This document shows, one piece after another, positions 1,200 to 17,959 of a stretch of 64,000 bases of DNA (the first letter of the stretch is position 1; each line of letters begins with the position of its first letter). The stretch covers positions 868,001 to 932,000 of the forward strand of contig NZ_JALPSC010000001.1 of assembly GCF_023217965.1 (NCBI RefSeq). Reading direction: 5' to 3'. The stretch comes from Prevotella sp. E13-27. GTDB taxonomy: Bacteria > Bacteroidota > Bacteroidia > Bacteroidales > Bacteroidaceae. The notes beneath the pieces are model-generated. The model saw only the letters and a list, made by a program, of their open reading frames with translations, was not told the origin of the DNA and ran no database searches. The position numbers were made by a program, and so were the translations under genes.

Positions 1200-2420
1200 T
1201 TATTCCTTTAGAGATACTTTATAGCTTACAGGTTTTCCGTTCAACTCTTTAAGGCTACCATGAATCATTAGTAAATCTGCTTGCCTAGTAGCACTCTTGA
1301 AATTGTAAATCCTGTAAACGTAGTAATGTTCCTTGTTAAGTTCACTGTAGAATAGTTCATTGGAAGTGAAGTAGAAAGGCTGACCAACACCTCCAGTCGT
1401 AGTTTTTACCTCAATATATCTTGGGGTAATGCCATCATCCTCTACAGATTCTATGTCATAACCCTTCCCGTCACCTTCTTCTATTGAAGTGTGAATGACA
1501 GAGTGTGAGATACCAAGTTTGCTCAATCGCTCTTTCTCATAGATTACAGCCCATTCTTCACCTAATAGCCCAATGCCTCTGAATATTTCATCCTTCTTGG
1601 CATAGTCAACACCTTTAACTGCCTTGAACTCCCCAGAGAAACTTTCATTAACATGGGAGAACTGAGAAGCTTCTATCACTTTGGGACTGCTACTGGCAAT
1701 AGGTTTCTTCTTATCTGACTTGGTGTAGGTGTTGTTATTAAAGTATCTGGCTACAGCATAGATGAAATCCTGAGTTAAAAGGTTATAGTTCTCGTCAGTA
1801 TAGCTATGCGAAAGCATCCATTTATTGTATTCTGCAATAAACTCTTTTTCCTTCAGAAGTTCTTTCTTGACTTCTTCGCAGAGACTATAGAACTCAATAA
1901 ATCGATCAACCTTGCCCGTCTCTTTACGCTTATACTCCACCATGCTTGCAAATGTCTGGAATATGCTGAACTTGTATATATAATGCGCCTTGGGGTAGTG
2001 CAGAGCCAAATAAACAGAGACGGCATGAATATCCTGAAAAGATTGTAAATTATCGCGCCCTTTCCAATCGCTATGACCCTCGTCTGCCATTGTCTTTACC
2101 AACTTGTCAAAGCCAGACATATAAGCAATCGCTCTTTCTTTTAGGGGTATAGTTTCATCGAAGAGGTTTGTCAGCAACTTGTCTGTAACATCTTGTTTCT
2201 CTTTGGAAACTTCAATCAGCATACCCAAAGGATAGTATGTTTGTGAATCGAGAAGATTAACATGCTTAGATAGACCTTGAATGGTGCGTGAAGTGATTGA
2301 CCCCTCGACATGGAATGTGTTTTGGAAATGCTTTATAGCTTCCCATTTATAATCTTCGAGATTGTTTATATAATCCCAATTGGATATATAGGCGTTAATA
2401 TATGGCTTTAGGTCTTTCAT
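1200..2420 (-). CDS. DUF3883 (NOV C-terminal-like, PD-(D/E)XK fold) protein
   Basis: 406-residue protein. The C-terminal third (about residues 290-390) matches the DUF3883 pattern: GEEWAVIYEKERL, then GYDIES, then RYIEVKTT, where the D and the ExK form a restriction-nuclease-like active site (residues about 320-338). The N-terminal ~250 residues are alpha-helical and I do not recognise them. DUF3883 domains are common in restriction and other phage-defence proteins, usually beside helicases and methylases. Its start is 10 bp below the stop of the lipoprotein gene, so it closes the long leftward operon. DNA cleavage or binding is inferred from the motif; the start ATG at 2420 fits the spacing. 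Confidence 0.75.
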   Translation of the reverse strand: MKDLKPYINAYISNWDYINNLEDYKWEAIKHFQNTFHVEGSITSRTIQGLSKHVNLLDSQTYYPLGMLIEVSKEKQDVTDKLLTNLFDETIPLKERAIAYMSGFDKLVKTMADEGHSDWKGRDNLQSFQDIHAVSVYLALHYPKAHYIYKFSIFQTFASMVEYKRKETGKVDRFIEFYSLCEEVKKELLKEKEFIAEYNKWMLSHSYTDENYNLLTQDFIYAVARYFNNNTYTKSDKKKPIASSSPKVIEASQFSHVNESFSGEFKAVKGVDYAKKDEIFRGIGLLGEEWAVIYEKERLSKLGISHSVIHTSIEEGDGKGYDIESVEDDGITPRYIEVKTTTGGVGQPFYFTSNELFYSELNKEHYYVYRIYNFKSATRQADLLMIHGSLKELNGKPVSYKVSLKE

Positions 2421-2430
2421 CTTTATCTGT

Positions 2431-2733
2431 TTAGAAATGAATCGTTGTTGTACCTGCCCACGTCGTATCAGCTGTTATTGTTATACGCAGCGATGCAGAC
2501 TTTATATTGGCTTGAATCTTGGGATATAGGGAGTGTTCCTTTGATTCGGGGTACTCTGTAGTGTAGTCATTAACCTTTACGGAAAACAACTTGACACTAT
2601 CAATTGTCACTTTTGGAAGTCCACAGGATTCATTATAGAAACCCTCCATTTCTGGGTAGCCTTCACCAATCACATCTTTCTCACAGCCTATAACCATGAG
2701 GCAAGCGGCAAACAATAACAGCAACTTCTTCAT
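2431..2733 (-). CDS. Small lipoprotein of unknown function
   Basis: 100 residues starting with a lysine pair, a hydrophobic segment and a lipobox ending in VIGC at residue 17, so the mature protein should be lipid-anchored at the cell envelope. The rest is a short beta-rich region with no family that I recognise. Its ATG overlaps the umuD stop (ATGA at 2730-2733), which suggests translational coupling. A secreted lipoprotein is out of place in an otherwise nuclease-rich operon; it could be passenger cargo or an envelope component of the system. Confidence 0.7.
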   Translation of the reverse strand: MKKLLLLFAACLMVIGCEKDVIGEGYPEMEGFYNESCGLPKVTIDSVKLFSVKVNDYTTEYPESKEHSLYPKIQANIKSASLRITITADTTWAGTTTIHF

Positions 2734-3167
2734 ACTTTTTCAAATGTTCTAATCAAGTGAATAACAGTACCCCATACTTGAAATTCGTTTGGATCATCGA
2801 CACGGAATACAGGGTAATCGTCATTGGCTGGACGCAATTCAATATAGCCGTCATTCTTGTGTGTCAGATCCAGGAACTTCATTGTAAAACCGCCATCCCA
2901 CCATGCAACCACGATTGAACCGTCATGTGGCTCTACAGCTCTGTCGATGATGACCCTATCGCCATCAAACAGTCCTGCGTCTTTCATACTGTCACCCTCT
3001 ACGTCACCATAGAACGATGCTTCGGGATGCCTGATGTAGTCACGGTTAAAATCAAGCGTCTCATGCCTGTAATCGTCAGCAGGAGAAGGAAAGCCTGCCG
3101 CAACTCCAGCATGTTCAAGTTCAAGTTTGGTGTCGAATACACCTCGTACTATCTTGATATTTCCCAT
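2730..3167 (-). CDS. umuD: UmuD-like S24 self-cleaving protein
   Basis: 145 residues, close to the usual length of UmuD. Features match the classical protein position for position: cleavage site A24-G25 before FPSPADDY, nucleophile S60 in VEGDSM and general base K97 in FTMKFL. In the known family, RecA filaments trigger self-cleavage and UmuD' then joins UmuC as DNA polymerase V. No umuC follows: the next gene is a lipoprotein. It starts 11 bp after the double-nuclease gene. Without a polymerase partner it may work as a damage-sensing switch for the operon; that role is inference. Confidence 0.88.
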   Translation of the reverse strand: MGNIKIVRGVFDTKLELEHAGVAAGFPSPADDYRHETLDFNRDYIRHPEASFYGDVEGDSMKDAGLFDGDRVIIDRAVEPHDGSIVVAWWDGGFTMKFLDLTHKNDGYIELRPANDDYPVFRVDDPNEFQVWGTVIHLIRTFEKV

Positions 3168-3178
3168 ATCACGTCTTT

Positions 3179-5161
3179 TTAATATCCGTATCTCAAATTT
3201 AGATACTGAACCAGTTTTGCATATCGTCCAGATTCATCTATCAGTTTAACAATATTCTTTGGCTCTATCCATTTGTATTTGCTCTGATCCAAAATCAAAT
3301 TACGCCACGTTTCTTCTAATCCCATTTCCGAATATCTGTATCTACGATGGAGCAATGTCGCATTTTCCTTTGGCATTACATGAACGTGAACAAAATCATC
3401 TGCTTTGATTGGCTCAACAGATTTATGAGCTATAATTTGTTCTGCCCAAAGTGTCTGCCGCATCAACTGATAGAAGGGTTCTACGAAATACACGGTGTTT
3501 AGATAGCCACCAGATATTGCCTGCAACTGATTCGAGGCATTGATTAAATCTGTATATCTGCGTAGTCGCTCCTTGCCACTTCCCTCTGTGCCTGATTTGT
3601 CTATATTATATTCATTGCCTTCAGTATATTTCCATTCTATCGGAATCAGGATTTTATCACCTCCATTTATTCGGGCTATGATGACTGCATCAACCGATGT
3701 GCAGTTGGCTCCACGCTTAACGTATTTCTCATTCAGATAATCCTTGCTGCTTGTCACTTCAAATGCAATATAAGGACGAGATTTGTCACACTCGACAGGC
3801 TCTACATCTTCTACTTCATGGCCTACGAGCATTTGGGCTAATTTAAGAACCAAATCCCGATCGTATCTAATAGCAAACAGATGATTCAAACATGCTACTT
3901 GTGATGACAATATATGATTGGGAATACCGTTACTGCCCCAAAATACTATTTGTTCGTTTTTGAAATAATCAATACAATCATCTACAATATCTTCAAATAT
4001 ATTATTGCGAGAATCTAACAAGCAAAACTCCCATGTCTTATTCAAAAATTCTCCACCGCCACAATCACCATGAAACAAGGTTGTATTCTTCATCAATTCT
4101 AACTGGCGCACCTGCTCTTTCTTTTTGTAATTGCTTGATGTCCTTTCCGTAGAATTGTTTGAATACTTTGGCATTGATGTGTGCTGTTCTCTACTTGGCA
4201 AATCATACATTGCATCATTTATGATGTCAATTTTAGAAATGTCTTTCAAATCCTCTATGGTTTTAGGAGAGAACAGGAACTTCACATAAACCTTACCGTT
4301 ATTAGGGTCTGTAACATCACCGAAAACGGATTCTACGGTTTTGCATGAAACCCTTGGGCTGTTCCAACGGGTAGCATCGTCAAACATATACCCTCCAACT
4401 GTTTGTTTTGGAGTACAAAGAGTATCGTAAGCATTATTATCAAGGGTAATAATATAGAACTCAGGTTTACTGGCCATCTGATCCATTCTCACATGCTTCA
4501 ATTCTTCGGGAAAATCAGGATCCAGGTCACTGAGATTATTTAATATGGCCTTAGTTTCTCTCTTGAAGATTTCAAAGTAATTATATTTTCCAAACAAGTA
4601 AAAGTCCTCAATGTGTTTCCTTATACCACTATCTCCACCTACAGCTTTTCGACCATACTTTAGTTCAATAATGGCAATACGATATGGACTTTTCTTTGTA
4701 ATCGCTATTATGTCGAACCTGGCATTAAAATCTAAATGCTCTACATCCGCAGGTCTGCGCCATTCTACATCGGTGCAATACCATTCAGATTCTACATTCC
4801 TATTATTCTTTATGAACAAGGCAGACTGCGATTTTTTCTCTTCGTTGCTTTTCTTATCGCTATTGGCCTTTATTGTATCATAACAGCCGATAATCTTTTT
4901 TCTAATCTCATCCTCAGAACATAGGGTAAGCATCGGCGAATTGCTAATACCAGTGAAATAGTATTCATTTATTTCACACCTAATCATGTTTCCCTGAGTG
5001 TAGGAAACCTTTGCTATGCTGATATTATTATAGTAGATGTTTATGTATTCATTCCTGATGGCAATGAACAACTCATTTCTATGCTGCAAATACAGTTCTT
5101 TGTATAAACAGCTTTCCTTGAACTTATCGACGAAACTGATTCCTCTGATTGACTTCTTCAT
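3179..5161 (-). CDS. Protein with two PD-(D/E)XK nuclease-like regions
   Basis: 660 residues from ATG at 5161; the frame opens earlier at a TTG (5221), but that would overlap the upstream gene by 50 bp, whereas 5161 leaves a 10-bp gap. Two restriction-nuclease-like cores are visible. The first (about residues 145-175) has ARFDIIAITKK then AIIELKYG. The second (about 490-520) has SVDAVIIARI then IPIEWKYTE. The second resembles the putative restriction enzymes annotated as the PGN_0703 family; that family name is from memory. The protein sits between the ExoVII-like and umuD genes in the operon. A nuclease role in defence is inferred from the motifs and neighbours. Confidence 0.7.
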   Translation of the reverse strand: MKKSIRGISFVDKFKESCLYKELYLQHRNELFIAIRNEYINIYYNNISIAKVSYTQGNMIRCEINEYYFTGISNSPMLTLCSEDEIRKKIIGCYDTIKANSDKKSNEEKKSQSALFIKNNRNVESEWYCTDVEWRRPADVEHLDFNARFDIIAITKKSPYRIAIIELKYGRKAVGGDSGIRKHIEDFYLFGKYNYFEIFKRETKAILNNLSDLDPDFPEELKHVRMDQMASKPEFYIITLDNNAYDTLCTPKQTVGGYMFDDATRWNSPRVSCKTVESVFGDVTDPNNGKVYVKFLFSPKTIEDLKDISKIDIINDAMYDLPSREQHTSMPKYSNNSTERTSSNYKKKEQVRQLELMKNTTLFHGDCGGGEFLNKTWEFCLLDSRNNIFEDIVDDCIDYFKNEQIVFWGSNGIPNHILSSQVACLNHLFAIRYDRDLVLKLAQMLVGHEVEDVEPVECDKSRPYIAFEVTSSKDYLNEKYVKRGANCTSVDAVIIARINGGDKILIPIEWKYTEGNEYNIDKSGTEGSGKERLRRYTDLINASNQLQAISGGYLNTVYFVEPFYQLMRQTLWAEQIIAHKSVEPIKADDFVHVHVMPKENATLLHRRYRYSEMGLEETWRNLILDQSKYKWIEPKNIVKLIDESGRYAKLVQYLNLRYGY

Positions 5162-5171
5162 AGGCAGTTGC

Positions 5172-6680
5172 TTATTTGAATAATAAAACAGCGAAGAAAG
5201 CGATTGCAGCAATAATTGCAATTATTTTCCAAAGGGTACTACCACTATTGGATAGTGCCTCAGATAGTTGCTTCTCCAGTTGACGTGCTTTGTCTTTGGC
5301 TTCATTCAAATCTTTGTTAGCCTGAGTATTCTGTGCTGTCAGCTTCTCCATCGACTTTTGAAGTTGACCGTTGGTTTCCTGCATCTTTTTCAGGCTCTCG
5401 TTGAACTCTTTTGACTGTTTTGTGCTGGCATCATTCTGTGCCTTCAGTTGAGCCTGGAGTTTACCTAACTGCTCAGAATGGGTCTTTGTCAGTTCCCCAA
5501 GTTTCTTTTGTAACTCTTCATTCTGCTTGTTACTTTTCTCCAGTTGCTCCTTATGCTGTTTCTGTATAGCTTCTACTTGCTCATTATGCTTCTTTGTGGC
5601 CTCATTCTGTGCTTTGGTTAGTGCCTGGACTTGCTCATTATGTTTTTTTGTTGCTTCTTCTTGGGCTTTAGTCATTGCTTGCACTTGTTCCAAATGCTTT
5701 TTATTGGCATCCTCTTGGGTCTTTGTGAGTTTTGCTAATTTCTCCTGTAGTTCTTTGTTCTGCTTTTGACCAGCCTCCAGTTGTTCCTTAAACTGCTTCT
5801 TAATCTGCTCAGTAATGGCGGCACGAGATTTGGTTTTCTTCTCCGATACTATTTCCACCATTTCAGAGAAATATTGTCCTAATCCCTGTGGAGTTGCAGT
5901 CCATTTGTCTGCAACCTGACGTAAGAATATCTTTTCGTCCTTATGACCTACACCAGAGATAAATGGTGTTTTCAGCCCTACAACAGTCTCAATGACCTCT
6001 GGTTTGTCAACATCAGTAGTTGAGTCAATACCACCACCCCGAACCATAGCTATAGCATGATAGCCTAACTGATCCAGTTGTTTTAGCTTCGTGCAAAGAA
6101 GCTTTGTCTGGGTAAATACTACCCTGTCCTCAATTAAGTCAAGTGCTACCCTCGCCGCCTTGATACCATCTTCAAAGTCCTTCAGAGTGATGGATGTCGC
6201 TGCTATCAGGAGGGCAATTTTGGGTCTTGTCTCATTGAATAAGAGAGATTCGAGGATGCTATCAACGTTCTTAAATCCATCGGACACTTTACGTTGACGG
6301 TATTCGATGCGTTTTACCTCGTTCTCGTCGATGACCTGCTCCTTAACAATTTCTACACGAGACACATTTAACTCCAGTTTAATCTCGCTTTTAGGAGTTA
6401 TCTTACGTCCCAGGGTGCCAAGAATCTCGACCAAATTGCCTGGAGTAAGTTCTTTCCGTTGGGCATCACTTATCCTAATAGGTAATTCTGAGGATGACTT
6501 TTCATCACGCAAAGTATCATAATAATAGCCTTGGTATGATGTGCCATTGCCTACCAAATAAAGTCCTCGAATACACACGATTTTGCCACTCGCCTGATTA
6601 TTCTGGTGAGCTAAAATGTCATTGAAGATACCTATAATCTCCGATGGCGTATATTGTTGAACTGTTATATTTGCTGGCAT
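5172..6680 (-). CDS. Exonuclease VII large-subunit-like protein with coiled coil and membrane anchor
   Basis: 502 residues. An N-terminal OB-fold region (about 1-115) precedes a core matching XseA: D168 in LKDF, R214 in VRGGG, and H246 in SGVGHKDEK, the equivalents of the known catalytic Asp, Arg and His; the second aspartate position is shifted or Glu (D248/E249). Residues about 285-475 are a Lys/Gln/Glu-rich coiled coil with a repeated 15-16-residue unit, followed by one membrane span at 481-500. Housekeeping ExoVII is soluble and needs many XseB subunits; no xseB is here. This variant is predicted to be a membrane-tethered nuclease. Family is clear, role in the operon unknown. Confidence 0.8.
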   Translation of the reverse strand: MPANITVQQYTPSEIIGIFNDILAHQNNQASGKIVCIRGLYLVGNGTSYQGYYYDTLRDEKSSSELPIRISDAQRKELTPGNLVEILGTLGRKITPKSEIKLELNVSRVEIVKEQVIDENEVKRIEYRQRKVSDGFKNVDSILESLLFNETRPKIALLIAATSITLKDFEDGIKAARVALDLIEDRVVFTQTKLLCTKLKQLDQLGYHAIAMVRGGGIDSTTDVDKPEVIETVVGLKTPFISGVGHKDEKIFLRQVADKWTATPQGLGQYFSEMVEIVSEKKTKSRAAITEQIKKQFKEQLEAGQKQNKELQEKLAKLTKTQEDANKKHLEQVQAMTKAQEEATKKHNEQVQALTKAQNEATKKHNEQVEAIQKQHKEQLEKSNKQNEELQKKLGELTKTHSEQLGKLQAQLKAQNDASTKQSKEFNESLKKMQETNGQLQKSMEKLTAQNTQANKDLNEAKDKARQLEKQLSEALSNSGSTLWKIIAIIAAIAFFAVLLFK

Positions 6681-6715
6681 TACAGTCTAAATTATAATTA
6701 ATGACGTTACAAATT

Positions 6716-8086
6716 CTATATTTGTAGACTTTCTTTTTCTCTTTGCTCTATTTTTCTGAGCCTTTCTATTTCTTCATTGCGAGTCTTTTCTACTTTTGCG
6801 AGTTCTGCTTTATGTAATTGTTCTATACGTTCTTTCTGTTTTCTTTCTTCGCTTAACACTTTTATCTCAGCATTACATTTCCTATCTATGTATGTTATTC
6901 GTATCTGCTCGAATTGTGAAGTTTTCGCATCAACTTCTCTTCCGAAAACACCATATTGAAATGCTATTTGACAGTTATTATAGTTCCATGCTTTAGAAAA
7001 AGGAGAATCAAAGTCTTTTATTTCTTTTCCATTTGGCACACCGTACTTAGTAACAAACAATGGGTATAAATCCTTTGAAATGTTTTTTTCAATTATTACT
7101 TCCAAAGAACCAATAATATCATCAATACTGCTGATAATACAATCACATTCATAGTTTATCCCATCTACGATTAACGTTTTCTGAACGAAGAAAGATTTAT
7201 AATTATCATATTCATCTGTTAGTTGCCAATTAGCAATATCGTGCTTTGCTATACCCTCTCCAATTCTAATGTCATTAAACGCTAAACTAATAGCAACATC
7301 CCTGTTTCTGTCTGCTCTTTCACTAAAAGGAATTATGATGGTTTTCAATTTCTTTAGCATCGCATACTCTTGGCAGGAAGCCGCAATCCATAAAAAAACT
7401 GTTATAATTGTAATTATAGTAACTATAACGCCCCCTTCATAGGTTCTTGGCCATGAGCTGAATAAGCTCATAAATTCGCCGAACATTGCAAATAATGGAT
7501 ATAAACAGAAAAAGGCAATGATATCAGATATGGCCATTCTGACCTGATGGCCTTTTTGAAAATGCTTAACCTTTGCGTCGAAATCATTTTTTATCCATTG
7601 GAAAGCAAAACTTGCTGTTTTTGAACTATAGTCAACCTTATCATAAAGAACCGTCCAACAGACAATATGTATCAAAGCGGTTAAAAGGCTACAAGCTATC
7701 ATCCACCACCCGTACATAAATAGAAAAAGACCCAATATTGGAGTCAATAATGCAATTAAGTATGCAATAGAGAAGTTCGTTTTGAATACAGGAATCCTTA
7801 TGCCTTGTTCAGATACGAGAAAATATCTATGATTAAACAAATTCGTCTCTACCGATGAATTGGAGGTGTTAATGATATAATAACTCCCAGTAGACATAGA
7901 TGGGCCTGATATTCTTTCACGGCTATAAATGCCTGTTCCGGGGATGCCAGTGTTTAAATAAGTTCCATTTGGACCAAATGTTACACTCGCTCCACGAACA
8001 CCGACTGTAGTGCTTATCCCACTCTTACTAAGATTTAATCTTATGCCAGGGAGTATTTTTATGCGTTTTCTAAATCTCCATCCCAT
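6716..8086 (-). CDS. DUF4236 membrane protein
   Basis: 456 residues. The first ~60 residues have the DUF4236 signature (MGWRFRKRIKI, then LNLSKSGISTTVG and GIPGTGIY). A central region holds about four hydrophobic spans (two near 105-145, two near 195-240), a cytoplasmic-type domain follows, and the last ~60 residues are a charged coiled coil. DUF4236 proteins are small unknown proteins, often beside phage or defence genes. It starts 1 bp after the Nudix stop and ends 35 bp before the ExoVII-like gene, giving two consecutive membrane proteins with coiled-coil tails. Function unknown. Confidence 0.75.
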   Translation of the reverse strand: MGWRFRKRIKILPGIRLNLSKSGISTTVGVRGASVTFGPNGTYLNTGIPGTGIYSRERISGPSMSTGSYYIINTSNSSVETNLFNHRYFLVSEQGIRIPVFKTNFSIAYLIALLTPILGLFLFMYGWWMIACSLLTALIHIVCWTVLYDKVDYSSKTASFAFQWIKNDFDAKVKHFQKGHQVRMAISDIIAFFCLYPLFAMFGEFMSLFSSWPRTYEGGVIVTIITIITVFLWIAASCQEYAMLKKLKTIIIPFSERADRNRDVAISLAFNDIRIGEGIAKHDIANWQLTDEYDNYKSFFVQKTLIVDGINYECDCIISSIDDIIGSLEVIIEKNISKDLYPLFVTKYGVPNGKEIKDFDSPFSKAWNYNNCQIAFQYGVFGREVDAKTSQFEQIRITYIDRKCNAEIKVLSEERKQKERIEQLHKAELAKVEKTRNEEIERLRKIEQREKESLQI

Positions 8087-8087: not shown

Positions 8088-8522
8088 TCAATCTATATCA
8101 TTATAGCATTTAATAGCATCACTCATTATATCATCGTGATCAAAAGCCAACTTGGGTAGTGCATCAAGTGGGAACCATTGAGCTTTAGCAGCATCATCTT
8201 GGCCTTTTACCTCACATGGAGAGTCAATGACAGCCAGATAAGCAACTGTTACTGTGCGTCCTCTTGGGTCTCGATCAACCTTAGAGTAGGCTCCTATCTG
8301 TCGTAGCCCCTGGATCTTCATGCCAGTTTCTTCTTCCAGCTCACGAATAGCGCATTGTTCCGTAGTTTCATCCATATTCAGGAATCCTCCAGGAAAAGCC
8401 CAGCAACCTTTGAATGGGTCTGCACCTCGCTCTATTAGCAGTACCTTCGGACAGTCCTCTTTGGTGATGACCACACAATCTGCTGTAACTGCTGGTCTTG
8501 GATATTTATATGAATACGCCAT
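8088..8522 (-). CDS. Nudix hydrolase
   Basis: 144 residues with a complete Nudix box at residues 46-68: GFLNMDE, then REL at 60-62 and EETGM at 64-68, all metal-binding glutamates present. Length and the surrounding pattern resemble the ADP-ribose pyrophosphatase/NrtR-type group. Such enzymes hydrolyse nucleoside diphosphates linked to another group, such as ADP-ribose, NADH or modified nucleotides, in the cytosol. It lies 11 bp after the zinc-ribbon gene and almost abuts the DUF4236 gene. Within a defence-type operon it could make or remove a nucleotide signal, or clean up a modified nucleotide; the substrate cannot be read from sequence. Confidence 0.9.
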   Translation of the reverse strand: MAYSYKYPRPAVTADCVVITKEDCPKVLLIERGADPFKGCWAFPGGFLNMDETTEQCAIRELEEETGMKIQGLRQIGAYSKVDRDPRGRTVTVAYLAVIDSPCEVKGQDDAAKAQWFPLDALPKLAFDHDDIMSDAIKCYNDID

Positions 8523-8533: not shown

Positions 8534-8764
8534 TTACCATCCGTTATCACCAAATCCGTCAGTGGGGAAGTCATCTGGGTCAGAAAAACCGTTCCAGCCG
8601 TCCCTTTTTGATTGGATTATTGGTACATTATCATTTATTACACTACCATATTTGCTAAAATAGGAATCACATTCGTGGCAATGGAATGTCTGTTTTCTAG
8701 AATTCCATAGCCCTATATCCGTCGAACCACATACGGGGCAAATCTTATTCTGATTATTATTCAT
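8534..8764 (-). CDS. Small zinc-ribbon protein
   Basis: 76 residues. A zinc ribbon is formed by CPVCG (C9, C12) and CHECDSYF (C29, C32), with a spacing typical of treble-clef or rubredoxin-like knuckles. The C-terminal half is rich in Asp, Gly and Trp. It begins 4 bp after the ASCH gene and ends 11 bp before the Nudix gene, so it is very likely co-translated with them. It may be a nucleic-acid-binding adaptor; no family name is recognised. Confidence 0.7.
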   Translation of the reverse strand: MNNNQNKICPVCGSTDIGLWNSRKQTFHCHECDSYFSKYGSVINDNVPIIQSKRDGWNGFSDPDDFPTDGFGDNGW

Positions 8765-8768: not shown

Positions 8769-9659
8769 CTACCTCCTTTTCCATCTGGTCATGCCACCCA
8801 TAGGAGTATAGATGATATGCACCCACTCACTATTATTACCTGATCCTACATAGGATTTCTTTTCACTTTTAGCAGTTCTGATAGTTTCCCTCTTTTTGAA
8901 GAATCCTAATTTAGAATTGGGAGAGAGATCATCAAGGTCAAACTGGAAAACCTCTATCCCTTTTGTTTTGCCATCTTCTTTATATCCTGCCATGTTCCAT
9001 CCCACACTATAGTTGGTTACGAACTTGATGACTTTGTTTTCATACACAAAATGAACTTCCCAAATTTCGTCATCATCGTCATCTAACGATGGTGGTTCAA
9101 GTATATTGGCAAATACTGGTGGAACTATCTTGCCCATATAACTCTCCCAAAAGACAAACACATCTTTATATTCCTCCTCATCCCTTAGTTGTTGCCAAGC
9201 AGAAAGCCCTACAGGTACTATAAGTCGATCTCCCTTACGTTCCATTCTTTTGGGATTTGAAGGGTGTGCAGGCTGTTTATCTAATTGGAATATGTCACAT
9301 TTGAAGTCCTTGATTGGCTGCTCAAACACATGGGGATTTTTGACAAACACGAATTTGTCTGTGCTAATAGGCCAGTTCTTTGTTCTCGTACCAGCAATTG
9401 AAACTATCACATAACCCAGATATTTGTTTACAGGATATGTGTTCTCTGGCAGATTCCCAAAGAAAAGCTCATTCATAAACTTCCTATGGACTTCATTTCT
9501 AAAATCCAGAGGTTCCTTTGTGAACTGCTGAGATACACCATCCGCATATATTAGTATCTTCTCGCCCTCTTTAATGTCATCCCATCTGCTAGGAATCGTT
9601 TGGAGAGCACCGCAAATAACCATGCTTGCGTAGGGTTGTTCTAATTTCAACTTTCTCAT
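8769..9659 (-). CDS. ASCH-domain protein
   Basis: 296 residues. The N-terminal ~120 residues follow the ASCH/PUA-like pattern: KLKLEQPYASMVICGA at residues 3-18, then GEKILIYA, a beta-rich stretch and LGYVIVSI. The rest contains an acidic run and a beta-rich region that I do not recognise. ASCH domains bind RNA or modified nucleosides; E. coli YqfB of this fold hydrolyses N4-acetylcytidine. This is the second ASCH domain in the operon, the other being fused to the large restriction enzyme. Together with Nudix it hints at handling of modified bases, which is inference. Confidence 0.7.
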   Translation of the reverse strand: MRKLKLEQPYASMVICGALQTIPSRWDDIKEGEKILIYADGVSQQFTKEPLDFRNEVHRKFMNELFFGNLPENTYPVNKYLGYVIVSIAGTRTKNWPISTDKFVFVKNPHVFEQPIKDFKCDIFQLDKQPAHPSNPKRMERKGDRLIVPVGLSAWQQLRDEEEYKDVFVFWESYMGKIVPPVFANILEPPSLDDDDDEIWEVHFVYENKVIKFVTNYSVGWNMAGYKEDGKTKGIEVFQFDLDDLSPNSKLGFFKKRETIRTAKSEKKSYVGSGNNSEWVHIIYTPMGGMTRWKRR

Positions 9660-9886: not shown

Positions 9887-10387
9887 CTATTTCTCCACTA
9901 ATTCAATGTAATACTCCCATCCGTCATTGCGTCCCATTGAGTATTCGCAGGGCTTTAGTTCTATCTTCATGTTCAGACGGTCAGCAATCTCCAAGTAGTC
10001 ATATAGCTCAGACTTTTCGACAGGAACTTCATACCCAGATCGCTGATTATTGACTATCTCGCTTATGTATTCACGTTCTTCATCAGAGGCAAAATCATTT
10101 TCCATCACCTTACGCTCATACTCCCGGAATATAGAGCGGCCTTTCTTATAGTCACGAAACTTTAGGTTGTTGAAAATATCAAATGACTCTATCCCCATAA
10201 TAAAGGTAGCTTTATCATCCTTTATAACTATCACAGGTGGCAAACCCTCACATCTGGGTTCATTATCTGAATAGTGAGGGGCATAGATGAACGAATCCCC
10301 CTTACGCCCAAGGTAAGAAGCACAGAAATACCCATGCTTCTGAGCGCACTTGTCAGCTAGTTCCTGAATATGTTTGTTGTTACGCAT
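9887..10387 (-). CDS. Hypothetical protein
   Basis: 166 residues, charged, mixed alpha/beta, no signal peptide or membrane span. Notable stretches are GYFCASYLGRKGDSF near the start and a C-terminal region ending in WEYYIELVEK. I recognise no family. It is packed between a likely 37-aa gene (4-bp gap) and the 69-aa gene (2-bp gap), so it belongs to the same transcript as the restriction and ASCH genes. Confidence 0.6.
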   Translation of the reverse strand: MRNNKHIQELADKCAQKHGYFCASYLGRKGDSFIYAPHYSDNEPRCEGLPPVIVIKDDKATFIMGIESFDIFNNLKFRDYKKGRSIFREYERKVMENDFASDEEREYISEIVNNQRSGYEVPVEKSELYDYLEIADRLNMKIELKPCEYSMGRNDGWEYYIELVEK

Positions 10388-10391
10388 AGTC

Positions 10392-10505
10392 TTATCCTTG
10401 CTTTGTAGGATTCTTACTCAGGGTGTTTACTGGAGTAGGATTTTCTCTACCATGAGTCCCTTTTGTCTGAGGGACAGTCGAAGTATGAATATTATCTTTA
10501 CACAT
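10392..10505 (-). CDS. Possible 37-residue peptide gene filling an operon gap
   Basis: The only sizeable gap in the operon (110 bp) holds an open frame from ATG at 10503-10505 to TAA at 10392-10394. It begins MCKDNIHTST and ends LSKNPTKQG, Pro/Thr/Asn-rich and hydrophilic. The start overlaps the end of the two-TM gene by 8 bp and the stop lies 4 bp before the next ATG, the same packing as the rest of the operon. Short and without homologs that I know, so it stays tentative. Confidence 0.4.
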   Translation of the reverse strand: MCKDNIHTSTVPQTKGTHGRENPTPVNTLSKNPTKQG

Positions 10506-11076
10506 ATATGTATTGTTTAAAGGGTTGAAGTCTTTTATCGGCAAGTGCTTTTGCTCTATCTACCCAATCTTCATTGAGATTGCCATGAATACGACTAAAC
10601 TTGTTATCATTTGGGAGCTGATTAGCCCTCGCTTCGATATATTCATTCTCAATAGATGCCACCTTACTAGATACTGCTTTGAAATGACTATCTAATTCTG
10701 CCAACCATCGGCCTAATTTGGATAAATACGAATTAGTTACTTCCAATAATCCAATCAATTCAGATTTATCATTCTCACTTGCAAACTTAGAGATAATCTT
10801 TCGGTTATGATAGATAATAATAGATGCAGCAATAGTAATAAATGCGAAAACACCCAAGAGAACATATAAGATGGTTTGGCTACATAAAAGAGAAATAGCT
10901 CCCTCTAAAATTGTTAGACCTAAACTCCAGGGCCAGCAAGTCTTTAGCCAAGTCAGCCATTTATACTTGTCCCGAAGGGCTTTATCTTCGTCCAAGTATA
11001 TGCGTCCATACTCTAAAATGGGTTGCCATTTATTGAGTTCTTCGGCGATACAGTTATTGAGCTGCTCCTGTGTCAT
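10498..11076 (-). CDS. Two-span membrane protein, unknown
   Basis: 192 residues from ATG at 11076 (MTQEQLNNC); a TTG five codons earlier would overlap the HrgA-like gene. Two adjacent hydrophobic spans lie at about residues 45-90 (SLGLTILEGAISLL and ILYVLLGVFAFITI), flanked by helical regions; the C-terminal half contains a helix (LGRWLAELDSHFKAVSSKV) and a basic tail. The layout, helix then TM hairpin then helix, occurs in membrane effector proteins such as SLATT types, but I cannot assign it. The gap to the HrgA-like gene stop is 8 bp. Confidence 0.6.
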   Translation of the reverse strand: MTQEQLNNCIAEELNKWQPILEYGRIYLDEDKALRDKYKWLTWLKTCWPWSLGLTILEGAISLLCSQTILYVLLGVFAFITIAASIIIYHNRKIISKFASENDKSELIGLLEVTNSYLSKLGRWLAELDSHFKAVSSKVASIENEYIEARANQLPNDNKFSRIHGNLNEDWVDRAKALADKRLQPFKQYIYV

Positions 11077-11084
11077 GCGTTCAC

Positions 11085-12260
11085 TTAACAAGGTATATGG
11101 TTTTCCCTACAATATGTCATTGTTTCATCTTCATTTATAAAGCCTGCGTCACAGAATCGCTGTAGACCATTCTTTACATCATCAACAAGATTGGCCTGTG
11201 CATTTAGTACGTTGGTGGTCTTTGTGATGAAGTCCTTGAAATGGTCATTGAGCCTACAGAGTTTGTCAATAGTATAGTAGTCCAGTTCGTTCTTGCGAGC
11301 TTGGAATAGCACCTTTGTTTCACCTGTGTACGGAGAAAGAAGAATTACTCCTATACCAAACGAGCGATTGAGCCTTTCCATTTCCTCCATAACTTCCTCG
11401 TTTATCTCGAAAGCCACGAGGTAGCCATAGTTTGCCCAACTGCTATTTGAAAGTGCCTGGAAGAAATACTCTTTAAGTTGGTGGTCATTCTCAATAGTAC
11501 GTTTCAATTCGTAAGAGTAAAGATATATGTACTCTTTTGTGTTGGCCGCTTTCAAGAATGAACGTGTGGCTGGATCTTGAAAGTCGTTGAATTGAACACC
11601 TACCATGTCAGGATGAACCCATTTCTTTGCCTGATCACTTCTGTTGGATGTTTCGTGGAATATAGTCTTTGAGAGAATGCCTTGGTCTAACAAATAGTTG
11701 GAAAGGAGTCTGTGCAGGCTACGTTCTTTGTAGTTTTCTTGTGTGGGAGTTGTAACAGAAGGAGTAATGTTTACAGTACCGCCATTTATTAACTGTTCTA
11801 TCTCTTCTGCATACTTTGTTATGTTGCAGCAAGTGCCAATGGAACCTGTCGAGTTCTGTAGCTTCTGGGACATGGATCGTCTGGCGATAACAGCATCCAA
11901 CCACCTGACGGCACGTCGATGAGGGAGTTCCGCTCCTGCTGTGTAATAGTAGTCACCTGTTATCTCGCCTACATGATAGCCCCCCTCACCATTGGATGCT
12001 AAGACAATATCACCAGTCTTTAGTCCAAAGCAGACCGTCCACAAGAACCCGATCAAATTTCTGGATGTACCAACAGACTTGTCTGGCTGTATTTCAAGAA
12101 ACTTAGCGACAAGTTCCTGTCGCCACAGACTTTCATCGTTATATGGCGTTCCCGAAAGATCTAGTCCCTTCAGAACATTAATTCCGATATAATTGTGTTC
12201 AAGGCAGTCGGCTATATACATGCCATGCTCACCTAACATTATTCTATTGTACTGTTTCAT
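11085..12260 (-). CDS. HrgA-like (COG2958-type) nuclease with EVE/PUA-like N-terminus
   Basis: 391 residues from ATG at 12260, 4 bp below the restriction gene stop; the frame opens at a TTG (12293) that would overlap. The C-terminal ~200 residues match the HrgA/COG2958 pattern: WVHPDMVGV, then YSYELKR, FFQALSNSSWANYGYLVA and SFGIGVILL. The HPD and ExK positions resemble a PD-(D/E)XK site. The N-terminal ~150 residues include GDIVLASNG, VGEITGDYYY and HRRAVRWLD, which resemble EVE or Mrr-N-like modified-base readers. HrgA was named for its association with restriction genes in Helicobacter. Likely a nuclease partner of the adjacent enzyme; the modified-base idea is inference. Confidence 0.72.
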   Translation of the reverse strand: MKQYNRIMLGEHGMYIADCLEHNYIGINVLKGLDLSGTPYNDESLWRQELVAKFLEIQPDKSVGTSRNLIGFLWTVCFGLKTGDIVLASNGEGGYHVGEITGDYYYTAGAELPHRRAVRWLDAVIARRSMSQKLQNSTGSIGTCCNITKYAEEIEQLINGGTVNITPSVTTPTQENYKERSLHRLLSNYLLDQGILSKTIFHETSNRSDQAKKWVHPDMVGVQFNDFQDPATRSFLKAANTKEYIYLYSYELKRTIENDHQLKEYFFQALSNSSWANYGYLVAFEINEEVMEEMERLNRSFGIGVILLSPYTGETKVLFQARKNELDYYTIDKLCRLNDHFKDFITKTTNVLNAQANLVDDVKNGLQRFCDAGFINEDETMTYCRENHIPC

Positions 12261-12264
12261 AATG

Positions 12265-15200
12265 CTATTGATTTTCTTTTCTTTGAACTTCAATCACTTT
12301 AGAAATATGGAACTCTTCAATCCACCAACAGAACATCTTAGCTCTCACTTCAACAGGAGTAAACTCAACTTTCTCTACCTTGACAATAGCCGTATCTCTC
12401 TTCGTGTTATAGCCTACAGCTAGGAATAGAAACTTGTATTGCTTTGGTAAGAATGGGAATTTACCACCGTTGAAGTCATCAAGTTCGTATTCCAGTGAAG
12501 GATCGGTGCAACTTGGATTCAGCATCGGTTTCTTGCCTTGGTATTGTAGATAGCGTTTTGCCGTCGTACTTTTGACCTCTCTGTATTCGATGGTCTTTGT
12601 CCCTGCAACAATCTGGTCAAAGTATTCTTGTTTGATAGGCAAATAAAGAGTATTCTCTGCCGTTGGAGTTTCGTCGCTATCATTTACAAACACATTTTCA
12701 TCACACCTGTAGCTAACATGTTCAGCTGTCTCAGTATTCTCATTGTCAACCTCTTTGTTCGCGTTTTTCTCGACAATAACGCTATCTCCATCAAAAATCA
12801 ATTTCGGAAGCGTGTTTACTTTATGAACGGTCTTGACGGAAACATTGATGACAGAAAGCATTAATTCCAAAATGTAACGAGGATTATTGTGTTCCTTTCC
12901 CCAATCATTCGGGTCATTCTTTATCAGGCTGTTCTTGTCGATTGTTACAGCATAGCGTTCCATAAGCCATTCTATAGCAGACTTACCATTGACAACGTAC
13001 TCATACGCTTCTGAAGGAATGTTGGTAATGCGAATCTTTCCATTGTAGATGATGGTGTCCTTCTGTTCTTTAGAGGGGAACTTCATCTTTTCCACATAAT
13101 AATCATCATCACTCATTTCATCAGGATTAACCAAATATTCTACTTTGACAGTAGGACAAGCTTCTTCAATCTCGTAATTCAGATGCAATTCTGCCAGTTC
13201 CTTACCGACTTTGTAGAACGTCATAAAGTCATCAACCTTTTCCAAAATGGGAATACGAGGCAGAGACTTTTTTAGGTCATCGGCAAATCTCTCACGATAA
13301 TCTACAGAGTGTAATAGTCCATAAACATAGTAGAAAATATGCTCCTTGGTTAATGACTTGGTATCTCCAAAGCGTTTTCTTACTTCCTTTAGGATCCAAT
13401 CGCTTATTCCATCATGTCTAATGTAATCGGCATTGGAATTGTCATCAAACAACCCAAGCTGCTGTTGTTGGTTCTTTTCATACCAATAGAGGGGGAAGCA
13501 TTGGCATTTCTCCACTGTATCTAACGACGGTATTTTGTCAATCATTAATGCTGTGAAGTTTTTACTAGCTCCAACGCCACTCAAACAAATAGTGTAATTT
13601 TTCTTATCTTTGGTCGGATAAAGCTTTTCCCACTGTCCTCTACTTTCAACCAATTTCTCTCCATAATAAAGATTACTCAGTACGAATGGCCTATATATGC
13701 TACTTCTTACACCTTTGTCATCAAACAAAATCTGCTCATTATTATAGGCATATCTTCTTAATGACCTCGTCCAACTTATTTTCGTTTGGTCGGTATCAAT
13801 ATTATCTTCAATAGCAGCTTCTGAATCTTCTGCCAATATCTTTGCAAATGATGCTCTTTGGGTGTCATAGAATTCTATCAGTCGCTTTACATTATCAGTT
13901 AATTCCGTTTTGGAATAATTATAGTCCCAAGCATCCCTGTTGGTTGCCACTCCAATAGCAACCATATTAAATAATGATTGCGTTTTGAGATTAAAGTTCT
14001 TATCGGGGGACAGGGGAATCAAACTATCAAACAAACCGTCTCGCTGGTTAATCCAATCAGCCTTCTCATTTGGCTCTATGATTTGCCATTCCAGTCTACG
14101 GGAATTAACACTTCTATATCCTTTTAAGATTCTTAGTTTGTCTTCTCTGGATAGATAATCACCAATATCGTGATAGAAAATGGTGGCCTTGCCCTTACCC
14201 TCTCCTGGTTTCTTAACCAAAATAGTTATAGCAATAGGAGTACGGGAACCAGACCCGAAGATTTTACCACCCTCTCTTCTGGAAAGTTCTCCACTTGTTC
14301 TTTGGTTTCCTCGGAGGTTTAGTACATAGATACTTGAAAACTCTTTTTCTAAGCACTTCCTGAAACCATCTTGACCATTACCGTCAATCCAAGCTCCATT
14401 ACTAATGAAGGCAACTATACCTCCTTCATTATGCTGTGAAATTCTATCGCTAGCCCATCTGAAAGCCTTGATATAGCTGTCGTAAAGGGACTTAGTAAGA
14501 GTTGCAGAGCTTCTTTTTACATACGTTTCAGCAATTCGAGCATCCAGATGTTTATAGCTAACATTCTGAGCATTGTCATTGGCTGACTTCTGACCAATAG
14601 AATAAGGTGGATTTCCAATGATAACCCTGACAGGAGCCTTCTTCTGCATTTCTACACGCTCTGAATTCTCTTTGAACAAATGGCTGAATATATCCCTGTC
14701 ATCATCTTCATTCAACTGGAATGTATCAGTGAGACAGATTCCATCATAAGGTAGATATTCGTCTGGGTGAATAAGGTCATGGTAAACGCTCTCAATGTTC
14801 ACGTCAGCAATATAATAAGCCAGCAGTACAATCTCATTGCAATGGATTTCATTAAGATACTTCCTCTTCATATCCTCTGGCTTAATTAGCCCACTTTGCA
14901 TGAGCCGTGTAATGAATGTACCAGTCCCCGTAAATGGATCGAGAATATGCACGTTTTCTTCTGTTAATGACGTATCAAATTCTTTCTGGAGGATATGCTC
15001 GACTGAATTGATAATGAAATCCACACATTCAATCGGGGTGTAGACAATACCGAGCTTCTCGACTGTCAATGGGAAAGCACCCTTAAAGAACTTCTCATAT
15101 AGTTCCTTGATGATAGTCTGTTTGCCACCAAGGTTGTCGATGTTGCTTACATTTGAGCGCACCGAATCATAGAATTTTTCAAGAACTTCCAGATCTTTGC

Positions 15201-17706
15201 TCAGACCTTCTTCTTCCAAAAGGTCGATAATCTGCTGCATGGAACGACTGACTGCATTGTTCTTCACAAACTCATAATCCTTGAAAAGAGCATCAAACAC
15301 GGGGCGTGTGATAATATGTTGAGCAAGCATTTCTACAGCCTGGCCCTCGTCAATTGATGGATTCAAGTTCTTCTGTAGTCCTTTTAAATATTCGTCAAAT
15401 TCTGCTTTATGAATACCATCCTTCAATACCATTTGAGTGATACGCTCGATGAACTTTCGAGCGATGGTTCCAACTTCTTTGGCCCAATTCTCCCAATAAA
15501 GCCTATCACCGCACTTTTCAACAAGTTTTGCATAAATACCCTCCTGCATTTCTCCGAAACGGATTTCCAACTGCTTTGCCACATCAGCTTCATCAAGTAC
15601 CTGTGCATCTGCCTTGTCTTGTGAATTTTGAGCATCAGTTCCAAAACCGATGCCACCGACAAGAACTTTGCTGTTTTTCTTCTTGTTCAGGGCAATCTTG
15701 TTTACCTCTGCATTGAAGTTGTCATCATGTGAGCGTAGGGCATTGAGAATACTCCACACCACATCAAAATACTTATTCTTACTCAAAGCATCTTCTGGAC
15801 TAACATCCATCGGAACCACAATCGGGATGATAATGTAGCCGTATTTTTTTTCTCCAGGCTGTCCCTTTCGGAAGTTTCGCATGATACGGCCAACAGACTG
15901 AACAATATCGACTTGACTGTTTCTTGATGAAAGGAATAGAACCGCATCAAGAGCCGGAACGTCGATACCTTCAGATAAGCAGCGTACATTGGTCAGCACT
16001 TTGCACTCCTGTTCGTCCTGACTTTCTTCTTTCAACCATGCAAGCGATTGGTTTCTTTCAAGAGCGTTCTGTGAGCCGTCAATGTGCTTGGTCTTGATAT
16101 GAACAACACGTTTCCTTTCTTCCTCACCAAGACTTTCAATGTATTTGTTGCAAAGCCTAGGTAGGGTATAAGCAATGTTTTTTGATGTACCAGCCTTATC
16201 CTCACTTCCTATTGCAGAACAGAAGGCTACTGCACGGTGCATTATTTGAGGATCTATCTCCCACGTCTTGCCTTCATCACCACGAACCTCTTTTGAAAGT
16301 CCATTTATAACACCTATTAACTTGGAGGTCTCGTCAAAATTCAGTTCCTTTATGTCTTTGTTCTTGACATCAGCCTTAATGGTATCAGGCACATCATCTT
16401 CATTAACGGTAAGCACCAGTACCTTATAATCTGTCAGCAATCCATGATTGACTGCATAGCTAAAGTTTACCCTAAAAAACTCTTTTCCATAGATGGTTTC
16501 GTCATCCATCGAACAAAGTATGCAGTTCTTTTCAGATGCTTTTACTCTAGCACTCTCTCCATACAAACGAGGGGTAGCTGTCATATAGAGGCGTTTCTTA
16601 CCTCTTACATTGTCATTCGAGTGTACTTTTGTGAAATTACTTTCGTCTGCATCTGATAGTTTAATGCCTGTAGTCCTGTGTGCTTCATCACAAATAATCA
16701 GGTCAAATTCACCATAAATTCCATTGGTTGCTTTTAATACTTCTTTTTGAGCATCCGAAACAGCATCTATAGACTGATAAGTAGAGAATACTACCACCAG
16801 GCCATTGTGATTCTTGTAAGAAATCAACTGTCTGGATATTGATTTGGCATTTGTACTTGATGGAAGAGCAAGGTCAACTGCACTATCCGAAACATCATCA
16901 GACTCTTTGGTAATCTTTTTCTGAGCTTTATTATCAGAGCAAATACATACTGCCTTGATTGTCTCTTTTGCATCACCATACCAAGCGTTAAGAGCCTGAC
17001 CAAGCAAGGAAATTGAAGGAACCAGGAATAAAACAAGTCCTTTTCCTTCTAACATGGTTTCTGCTATTTGTAATGATGTATAAGTCTTTCCTGTACCACA
17101 TGCCATTACCAACTTGCCTCTGTCATTCTCTTTATAATGGTTGACAGCAGCAGAAATTGCTCTTAGCTGGTGTTCCATCGGCTGTTTACCTTCAGCCCTA
17201 GCGGTAGTACCTGTTATACCATCCTCCAACTTCTCCCAGTCAACGGGCGAAGTTTCTAAGTCAACCAGACCTATACGAGATACAGGTGGATTCTGGTTTT
17301 TGATGGCCTCTTCTGCATTGTTTCCCCAATGGTTAGTCGTAGAAATCCATAGACGATTAGAGAACCGCGTGGTCTGGAAGGTCTCAGGGTCAGTAAATGT
17401 TCTGCTCGATGTGGCAAGAAATGAATCTACTGAAGGTTTATCTATTGTGGCACTCTCTTGGTAGCATTTACATTGTATAGCCCAATATTCACCAAGTTCT
17501 GTCTTTGCAACTAGGTCTATTCCTGTATCTTTCCCACCAAAGTCACTTTTTGAAGGAAAGTCATTCCACATCCACACATGGGTTAACCTTTCATAGCGAG
17601 GATCGGTTAGTAACCAAGCTCGCATGAGGCGTTCAAACATAGTACCCTTATCCTTCTCTGTGAAAGATATGGAACGATATTTCTCTAATATTTCTTTGAA
17701 CGTCAT
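12265..17706 (-). CDS. Type ISP-like restriction enzyme (nuclease-helicase-N6A methylase) fused to an ASCH domain
   Basis: 1,813 residues in one frame. Mrr-like nuclease at about 55-90 (GIDLVAKTELG, QCKCY); SF2 helicase with Walker A MACGTGKT (~200), DEAH in IICDEAHRT (~340) and motif VI QSVGRIMRNF (~608); N6-adenine methylase with motif I DPFTGTGTF (~920) and motif IV GNPPY (~1032); then a probable target-recognition region. The order is that of LlaGI/LlaBIII Type ISP enzymes, single chains of about 1,570 residues that methylate one strand and translocate to cleave. Unlike those, residues ~1,680-1,810 form an ASCH domain (LYLPIKQEYFDQIVAGTKTI). It follows the XRE gene by 21 bp and leads the structural genes of the operon. 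Confidence 0.9.
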   Translation of the reverse strand: MTFKEILEKYRSISFTEKDKGTMFERLMRAWLLTDPRYERLTHVWMWNDFPSKSDFGGKDTGIDLVAKTELGEYWAIQCKCYQESATIDKPSVDSFLATSSRTFTDPETFQTTRFSNRLWISTTNHWGNNAEEAIKNQNPPVSRIGLVDLETSPVDWEKLEDGITGTTARAEGKQPMEHQLRAISAAVNHYKENDRGKLVMACGTGKTYTSLQIAETMLEGKGLVLFLVPSISLLGQALNAWYGDAKETIKAVCICSDNKAQKKITKESDDVSDSAVDLALPSSTNAKSISRQLISYKNHNGLVVVFSTYQSIDAVSDAQKEVLKATNGIYGEFDLIICDEAHRTTGIKLSDADESNFTKVHSNDNVRGKKRLYMTATPRLYGESARVKASEKNCILCSMDDETIYGKEFFRVNFSYAVNHGLLTDYKVLVLTVNEDDVPDTIKADVKNKDIKELNFDETSKLIGVINGLSKEVRGDEGKTWEIDPQIMHRAVAFCSAIGSEDKAGTSKNIAYTLPRLCNKYIESLGEEERKRVVHIKTKHIDGSQNALERNQSLAWLKEESQDEQECKVLTNVRCLSEGIDVPALDAVLFLSSRNSQVDIVQSVGRIMRNFRKGQPGEKKYGYIIIPIVVPMDVSPEDALSKNKYFDVVWSILNALRSHDDNFNAEVNKIALNKKKNSKVLVGGIGFGTDAQNSQDKADAQVLDEADVAKQLEIRFGEMQEGIYAKLVEKCGDRLYWENWAKEVGTIARKFIERITQMVLKDGIHKAEFDEYLKGLQKNLNPSIDEGQAVEMLAQHIITRPVFDALFKDYEFVKNNAVSRSMQQIIDLLEEEGLSKDLEVLEKFYDSVRSNVSNIDNLGGKQTIIKELYEKFFKGAFPLTVEKLGIVYTPIECVDFIINSVEHILQKEFDTSLTEENVHILDPFTGTGTFITRLMQSGLIKPEDMKRKYLNEIHCNEIVLLAYYIADVNIESVYHDLIHPDEYLPYDGICLTDTFQLNEDDDRDIFSHLFKENSERVEMQKKAPVRVIIGNPPYSIGQKSANDNAQNVSYKHLDARIAETYVKRSSATLTKSLYDSYIKAFRWASDRISQHNEGGIVAFISNGAWIDGNGQDGFRKCLEKEFSSIYVLNLRGNQRTSGELSRREGGKIFGSGSRTPIAITILVKKPGEGKGKATIFYHDIGDYLSREDKLRILKGYRSVNSRRLEWQIIEPNEKADWINQRDGLFDSLIPLSPDKNFNLKTQSLFNMVAIGVATNRDAWDYNYSKTELTDNVKRLIEFYDTQRASFAKILAEDSEAAIEDNIDTDQTKISWTRSLRRYAYNNEQILFDDKGVRSSIYRPFVLSNLYYGEKLVESRGQWEKLYPTKDKKNYTICLSGVGASKNFTALMIDKIPSLDTVEKCQCFPLYWYEKNQQQQLGLFDDNSNADYIRHDGISDWILKEVRKRFGDTKSLTKEHIFYYVYGLLHSVDYRERFADDLKKSLPRIPILEKVDDFMTFYKVGKELAELHLNYEIEEACPTVKVEYLVNPDEMSDDDYYVEKMKFPSKEQKDTIIYNGKIRITNIPSEAYEYVVNGKSAIEWLMERYAVTIDKNSLIKNDPNDWGKEHNNPRYILELMLSVINVSVKTVHKVNTLPKLIFDGDSVIVEKNANKEVDNENTETAEHVSYRCDENVFVNDSDETPTAENTLYLPIKQEYFDQIVAGTKTIEYREVKSTTAKRYLQYQGKKPMLNPSCTDPSLEYELDDFNGGKFPFLPKQYKFLFLAVGYNTKRDTAIVKVEKVEFTPVEVRAKMFCWWIEEFHISKVIEVQRKENQ

Positions 17707-17727
17707 ATATCTATAGTTTTTAGTCCG

Positions 17728-17928
17728 TTATTCAATTATTAAATCTCTTAATTCACACTCCAACAGTTCAGCAATCCTATCCAATGTTGGCAGGGTAGGT
17801 TGAGTGATATTGCTACACCACTTAGATACCGTCACAGCAGTCACGCCCAACTGTTCTGCAAGCCAAACACCAGTCTTGTCTTTCTCAACTAACACTAGTT
17901 TTAGGCGATTTAATTTCTTCTTATCCAT
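17728..17928 (-). CDS. XRE/Cro-family helix-turn-helix regulator
   Basis: 66 residues, almost only an HTH_3 fold: the helix-turn-helix spans about residues 22-42 (LAEQLGVTAVTVSKWC) followed by TLPTLDRIAELLEC. Such proteins bind operators as dimers, and Type I and II restriction loci often use one (C-protein style) to delay nuclease expression. It is the first gene of the leftward operon, 21 bp before the restriction gene, and faces a divergent gene across a 164-bp region. Autoregulation and control of both directions are inferred. Confidence 0.88.
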   Translation of the reverse strand: MDKKKLNRLKLVLVEKDKTGVWLAEQLGVTAVTVSKWCSNITQPTLPTLDRIAELLECELRDLIIE

Positions 17929-17951
17929 GTTTAATATCTTAAATTCTGATG

Positions 17952-17959
17952 CAAATATA
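17952..17959 (-). promoter_or_regulatory. Predicted -7 element of the defence operon
   Basis: On the minus strand TATATTTG matches the Bacteroidetes -7 consensus TAnnTTTG, 24 bp upstream of the XRE start at 17928. A 7-bp inverted repeat, CATTTTA (17984-17990) and TAAAATG (18004-18010), lies just upstream and could be the XRE operator. Only AT-rich DNA is otherwise seen between the two divergent genes. Confidence 0.55.

Follow-up and report, generated by a model that had tools for sequence, protein, structure and literature searches.

A run of 15 leftward open reading frames (ORFs), read from the ORF list and leading from a gene for an XRE-type regulator (17928) to one for a NOV_C protein (1200), lies in the window, by which we mean the whole stretch of 64,000 nucleotides analysed here (G000:C1:868001-932000, within a 3.96-Mb genome of two contigs). 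With homolog-supported starts for p402 (12260) and REase-ARP (5161), the gaps are 35 bp or less at 13 of the 14 junctions, and at four of these the genes overlap or stand at most 2 bp apart; the longest gap, of 110 bp (10388-10497), separates TM197 from p166 (Table 1). Alternative TTG starts lie at 12293 for p402, giving 402 aa, and at 5221 for a longer REase-ARP. A preliminary description of this DNA had counted at least 15 leftward genes with no gap above 36 bp, which is right except at the one 110-bp junction, and from the spacing we infer that the run is probably co-transcribed.

The same description had set the run behind one XRE gene and one TAnnTTTG promoter. The gene and the site at 17959 are both present, a divergent TAnnTTTG lies at 18067, and a further one stands 34 bp ahead of umuD (3201), so that a single promoter for the run is not certain. 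On the operon strand the motif was observed six times against a shuffle mean of 6.3; since it is no commoner than in shuffles, neither the site before XRE nor that before umuD is strong evidence. The cluster had also been taken to end at 1200, which proved too short: the run continues past a umuC gene split by a recombinase element into more co-directional genes. To the left of the rest of umuC, on the same strand, are ORFs of 141, 172, 187, 137 and 259 aa, some of which we take to be GIY-YIG, GNAT and YjbQ proteins; the 141-aa and 259-aa ORFs have no Pfam match.

Table 1. Features of the operon and its surroundings, in operon order (positions in the window).
Feature	Position	Strand	Basis or remark
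comM, C-terminal half	19817..20758	+	N-terminal half about 85.5 kb to the left
582-aa gene, divergent, at island right end, no family	18072..19820	+	ORF
TAnnTTTG promoter-like site, upstream of XRE	17950..17959	-	motif not above shuffle expectation
XRE, 66 aa, HTH_3, first gene	17728..17928	-	ORF and HMM
Type ISP enzyme, 1813 aa: Mrr nuclease, helicase, methyltransferase, specificity domain, weak ASCH-like tail	12265..17706	-	HMM
p402, 391 aa from ATG: N-half PDC-S02, C-half putative nuclease	11085..12260	-	PADLOC
TM197, membrane protein, no family	10498..11091	-	ORF and hydropathy
p166, no family, after 110-bp gap	9887..10387	-	ORF
p69, no family	9675..9884	-	ORF
p296, 296-aa protein, without HMM support for ASCH	8769..9659	-	ORF
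Zinc-ribbon-like protein, 76 aa, weak matches only	8534..8764	-	HMM
Nudix hydrolase	8088..8522	-	HMM
DUF4236 N-terminus and four hydrophobic segments	6716..8086	-	HMM and hydropathy
ExoVII-like, 502 aa: XseA-type catalytic region, coiled coil, C-terminal hydrophobic segment 483-501	5172..6680	-	HMM and hydropathy
REase-ARP, 660 aa: PF22558 C-terminal nuclease and second PD-(D/E)XK-like motif in N-half	3179..5161	-	HMM
UmuD-type S24 peptidase	2730..3167	-	HMM (Peptidase_S24)
Putative lipoprotein, 100 aa	2431..2733	-	lipoprotein-type N-terminus
NOV_C protein, 406 aa, PDC-S36	1200..2420	-	HMM and PADLOC
umuC, first 11 codons, cut off by the recombinase element	1162..1194	-	remainder left of the window
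RIT-like element of 3.9 kb, right end	1..1172	-	in full G000:C1:865279-869172

Gene content

Most of the identities first proposed for the gene products were borne out. HMM matches support the Type ISP, ExoVII-like, UmuD (S24) and Nudix assignments; the double PD-(D/E)XK protein, our REase-ARP, matches PF22558/PF20796, and the DUF3883 protein matches NOV_C, which we take to be another name for that domain. Three membrane proteins (TM197, the DUF4236 protein and ExoVII-like) were recovered by hydropathy, as was the lipoprotein by its N-terminus. The label of HrgA-like nuclease given to p402 found no match in Pfam or NCBIfam, and PADLOC places its N-half in PDC-S02. Pfam holds no family for TM197, p166, p402 or p296, nor for p69 and the lipoprotein, for which Pfam was the one collection scanned. 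PADLOC matches at 1e-15 or better were obtained for three of the nine operon proteins scanned, against one (RmuC) of 31 ORFs of at least 150 aa in the chromosomal part of the window (20.8-64 kb), a small control that counts ORFs and not 10-kb neighbourhoods. Elsewhere in the window, the sole Rfam match at gathering score is a cobalamin riboswitch (59089-59295, minus strand).

The Type ISP protein has in a single chain the Mrr nuclease, SF2 helicase, N6-methyltransferase and ISP specificity domain by which such enzymes are recognized; LlaBIII can be aligned with it from end to end over residues 2-1636, and it is also related to LlaGI. Enzymes of this type translocate from unmodified sites and cut. 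The nuclease, helicase, methyltransferase and specificity domains are common to it, LlaBIII (4xqk) and LlaGI (5ffj), whereas the window protein has an extra ASCH-like tail of 170 residues (12265-12780, minus strand). This tail, one of two ASCH domains proposed earlier, falls short, at 19.8 bits, of the Pfam cut-off of 21.2 yet recurs, at 33% identity, on one other ISP protein (G214, L084); the second proposed domain, in the 296-aa protein, received no HMM support. The suggestion that the run is defence cargo is sustained by the relationship of the enzyme to LlaBIII and LlaGI and by the PADLOC candidates PDC-S02 and PDC-S36.

A mobile island in comM

The run is cargo near the right end of an island of about 85.5 kb inserted in comM, the two halves of which lie on the same strand (N-terminal half at C1:801658, C-terminal half at C1:887817). 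A large serine recombinase of 610 aa, with Resolvase and Recombinase domains, adjoins the left comM half, and the island is more AT-rich than the chromosome on its right; its backbone encodes a Sak-type annealing protein, a PD-(D/E)XK nuclease and DUF3871 and DUF3987 proteins, and a RecD2-like gene is present as well. Two overlapping ORFs in the island (C1:821481-824946, L012), one with a GmrSD_N (DUF262-type) domain, are possibly another defence module. Tried as an island marker with a two-row alignment, the 582-aa gene proved unsuitable, since it turned up in 2 of 301 family genomes, the second being a partial match in G004; the right junction of the island, searched as a DNA pattern with up to three mismatches, occurs in 2 of 398 genus genomes, our own included. 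Near contig ends, at C1:7160, C1:2220973 and C2:651, the 582-aa gene has three further partial relatives that score equally, which suggests a repeated element there.

The element that splits umuC encodes tyrosine recombinase ORFs of 846 aa (fused) and 344 aa, overlapping by 14 bp, the longer of which is about two recombinases long, and it is bounded by 36-bp inverted repeats. There are three copies of umuC in the genome and all carry the element at the same codon, once inverted. Two further copies of the element lie at C1:126 kb (L013) and C2:1002 kb (L014). Over 3892 bp, one of them is 100% and one 99.97% identical to that in the window; in one copy, which differs by a 1-base gap, the long recombinase gene appears as two ORFs. 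Given this near identity among copies, the spread of the element looks recent. Adjacent overlapping tyrosine recombinase genes, a like size (about 3.9 kb against about 3.5 kb) and several copies per genome recall RIT (recombinases in trio) elements (PMC3414803; PMC8138268), which have three such genes; the present element has two ORFs, its first two recombinases being one 846-aa ORF, and sits in umuC in all three copies.

Exchange of the restriction module

A second genome, that of Prevotella sp. tf2-5 (G167), contains the same kind of island in comM, with both comM halves and a serine recombinase 75% identical to ours; it is also the only other one in which the ExoVII-like gene was found (2 of 200 genus genomes, own included). 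Identities to the window island are 89% for umuC, which is uninterrupted there, 87% for the lipoprotein, 88% for umuD and 65% for XRE, and a 32% relative of the divergent 582-aa gene lies at the same place. Between XRE and ExoVII-like, a 1094-aa methyltransferase and a 1127-aa PLD-SNF2 helicase replace the genes from ISP to DUF4236, and neither these nor REase-ARP and NOV_C are present in the 60 kb of the G167 island searched. The restriction module is exchanged between two homologous islands. Between the two islands, identity within ExoVII-like is 55% for residues 5-327 and 91% for residues 371-502, and in a tree the N-terminal domain of the window protein is nearest to that from a plasmid Type I locus (L092); the gene is a mosaic, as expected from cargo exchange at that point.

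The remaining parts of the run were followed through sampled genomes, and several recur apart from one another. Relatives of ISP occur in 8 of 300 other family genomes; at the seven of these loci that were annotated (L087 left out), XRE is beside two, and apart from XRE neither p402 nor any other operon gene lies beside ISP at any of them. XRE itself recurs at five other restriction-modification (R-M) loci, of ISP (L086, L089) and Type I (L054, L092) kinds and in the G167 system. Full-length relatives of p402 were found in 4 of 300 other genomes, and in two of the four a Type I R gene adjoins it; p402 follows that gene by operon order in L054 and precedes it in L057. The PDC-S02 match covers residues 12-202 against model positions 1-190 of 308, and the C-terminal domain is found alone in several other genomes. 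An EVE-like reading of the N-half was considered and set aside: a structure model of p402 is poor overall (mean pLDDT 63.8), though confident in that half, with blocks of 70-92 over residues 1-160, and a PDB sequence search returned nothing credible. For REase-ARP there are relatives in 3 of 189 other genomes, one half being matched in each, and each half lies near a relative of the 307-aa gene found at 827108 in our island, which we take to encode a WYL-type regulator.

Relatives of the DUF4236 protein are present in 11 other of 301 family genomes, where only the N-terminal 60-130 residues are shared, and Nudix relatives of 76-77% identity lie near ExoVII-like genes in L035 and L037. TM197, p166, p69, p296 and the zinc-ribbon-like gene are at none of a first set of other loci compared and may be a unit of their own. 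In the sampled genomes no second instance of the 10-gene block that runs from ISP to DUF4236 was met, either whole or partly split. Viral contigs gave no relative of REase-ARP, p296 or TM197, and plasmids gave none of p296 and one partial match to REase-ARP. A literature search, with subscription journals and preprints mostly outside its coverage, found no paper on REase-ARP. Close relatives exist in metagenomes (97% for REase-ARP, 87% for p402, 92% for ExoVII-like), and it is possible that metagenome contigs hold a larger conserved unit.

Whether the run is one system or several stacked modules had been left open in the preliminary description, which pointed to a search for the gene order elsewhere; the full order from XRE to NOV_C was found in none of the sampled sets and sub-blocks recur. 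A single undescribed multi-gene defence system, with most of the 15 genes acting together, would account for the tight spacing with its one long gap and for several nuclease-type domains in one place, and the order of the middle genes, not met elsewhere, cannot be called random. We consider it improbable, and rejected it as our principal reading, since in the genomes sampled sub-blocks are found apart from one another and the G167 island has other genes in place of roughly the first ten and retains the rest. The evidence favours stacked modules, on two grounds: the G167 island swaps its restriction genes and keeps XRE, ExoVII-like, umuD, the lipoprotein and umuC, and ISP, p402 (with Type I R-M) and the REase-ARP halves (in WYL-type company) recur separately.

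The ExoVII-like protein and its neighbourhoods

The ExoVII-like protein passes the Pfam cut-off for Exonuc_VII_L (PF02601; 49.1 against 35.9 bits) and fails that of the NCBIfam xseA equivalog (48.9 against 180 bits), for which reason we do not call it ExoVII. Its D168, R214 and H246 match the XseA of the same genome (C2:137064), and Glu249 stands where XseA has Asp; the Glu is invariant in all 20 rows of the family alignment (A2). We take the four corresponding XseA positions to be catalytic. The protein is like XseA in its PF02601 domain and in three of these four positions, and differs in the Glu, a long coiled coil, the C-terminal hydrophobic segment and the company of defence genes.

At least 1,654 proteins match the family at an E-value of 1e-10 or better among the best 7,996 candidates scored. 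A scan of 84,980 species supplied ten loci, viral contigs one and plasmids six (two of them read); with L038 dropped as a 23-residue match at a contig end, 13 loci were read (the window, L029-L037, L039, L092 and L093). Among phages, one unannotated 7-kb record has an ExoVII-like match, and four plasmids of the Thermus group have matches of 28-32% identity.

Of the 13 loci, 9 have known or candidate defence genes no farther than 10 kb from ExoVII-like. The neighbour is Type ISP in the window, Type ISP with ShosTA in L030, ShosTA in L031 (a locus at comM), a methyltransferase with a PLD-SNF2 helicase in L034, PDC-M33A/B/C in L035, Type I R-M in L037, BREX PglX, PglZ and BrxL on the viral contig L039, Type I R-M with an AriA-like ATPase on the plasmid L092, and PDC-S26 on the plasmid L093. 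At L029, L032, L033 and L036, where PADLOC was run on one neighbour each, no defence neighbour was found. At eight of the nine loci the ExoVII-like gene closely follows the defence genes on their own strand; in L092 it is divergent, and in L030 and L031 it overlaps the preceding gene by 4-8 bp. In a tree of the 13 N-terminal domains, the window protein (ISP) is sister to that of L092 (Type I; support 100/100) and L035 (PDC-M33) to L037 (Type I; 100/99), while L032 and L033 form a pair with like partners and five forks are open. The proteins of L036 (374 aa) and L093 (348 aa) are short and match only to about residue 334, so the coiled coil and membrane segment are not universal; in L039 the gene is split into two ORFs. 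In L036 (4545-7801), comM is broken at a different place, beside another large serine recombinase and the short ExoVII-like gene.

From this distribution the protein may be read as a portable accessory nuclease, and two other accounts of the same loci have to be weighed. One is that ExoVII-like genes and defence systems share loci only through riding the same kinds of island, with no functional link: L032 and L033, two of the four loci where scanning gave no defence neighbour, share backbone genes with the window island, L031 and L036 are also at comM, and neighbour scanning covered part of the neighbours. Against this, the association is the same outside comM islands, on the BREX viral contig and on the plasmids with Type I and PDC-S26, and the gene keeps to the same strand just downstream of its partners, with short overlaps in two cases; we regard this account as rather unlikely. 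On the other account the island would chiefly be given over to DNA damage and repair (umuD-umuC, ExoVII-like, Nudix, RecD2-like) and would carry a single restriction system, with ExoVII-like serving repair. Both comM islands contain the umuD-umuC pair, which is also found close to ExoVII-like in L037 and L093; a 68% relative of the island's RecD2-like gene lies beside p402 in L054, and a TAnnTTTG site precedes umuD. The defence neighbours, however, occur at several loci where no umuC was seen in the stretch, and the genome has its own XseA, so that we judge it very doubtful.

We propose, tentatively and at a little under even odds, that the ExoVII-like protein is an undescribed, XseA-derived, often membrane-tethered defence accessory, portable among Bacteroidota, where it may plug into unrelated restriction, BREX, ShosTA and candidate systems, widening or backing up the attack on incoming DNA. 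Auxiliary or backup nucleases encoded beside BREX and related methylation-based primary systems have been described (PMC12839542). The likeness lies in extra nucleases beside a primary methylation-based system; the difference is that in our loci the protein is of XseA type and is found with at least six kinds of system, and the main text of that paper has no occurrence of exonuclease VII, ExoVII, XseA or exodeoxyribonuclease. An XseA-type accessory common to several defence systems was not met in the literature searched, of which subscription journals and preprints were mostly outside coverage.

A probable composite defence operon

The island with its two ends, the gene order, the domain identities, the exchange of modules and the separate recurrence of ISP, p402, REase-ARP and ExoVII-like are direct observations. 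The reading that we prefer, with a probability of roughly 0.8, takes the run for an operon of composite defence cargo, assembled from separate modules behind XRE and carried by a mobile island integrated in comM; its parts are mostly of known kinds, and their combination is new. In such an operon XRE would tune the restriction genes, like C-protein-like regulators, and Type ISP would be the primary R-M system, methylating host sites, translocating from unmodified sites and cutting. p402 may attack modified DNA that lies beyond the cutting of ISP, REase-ARP and NOV_C would be further nuclease-type effectors, and ExoVII-like, in the window probably tethered through its C-terminal hydrophobic segment, could act on the DNA ends or single-stranded DNA that the primary system produces. 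The umuD-umuC pair would be a DNA-damage module, broken here by the recombinase element.

If this is correct, the 15-gene operon would be a readable case of the exchange of defence modules in one island slot, with the exchange breakpoint visible inside a gene. It would also mark out ExoVII-like as an accessory gene open to assay in the company of several unrelated defence systems, in keeping with the recent idea of auxiliary nucleases at BREX loci (PMC12839542).
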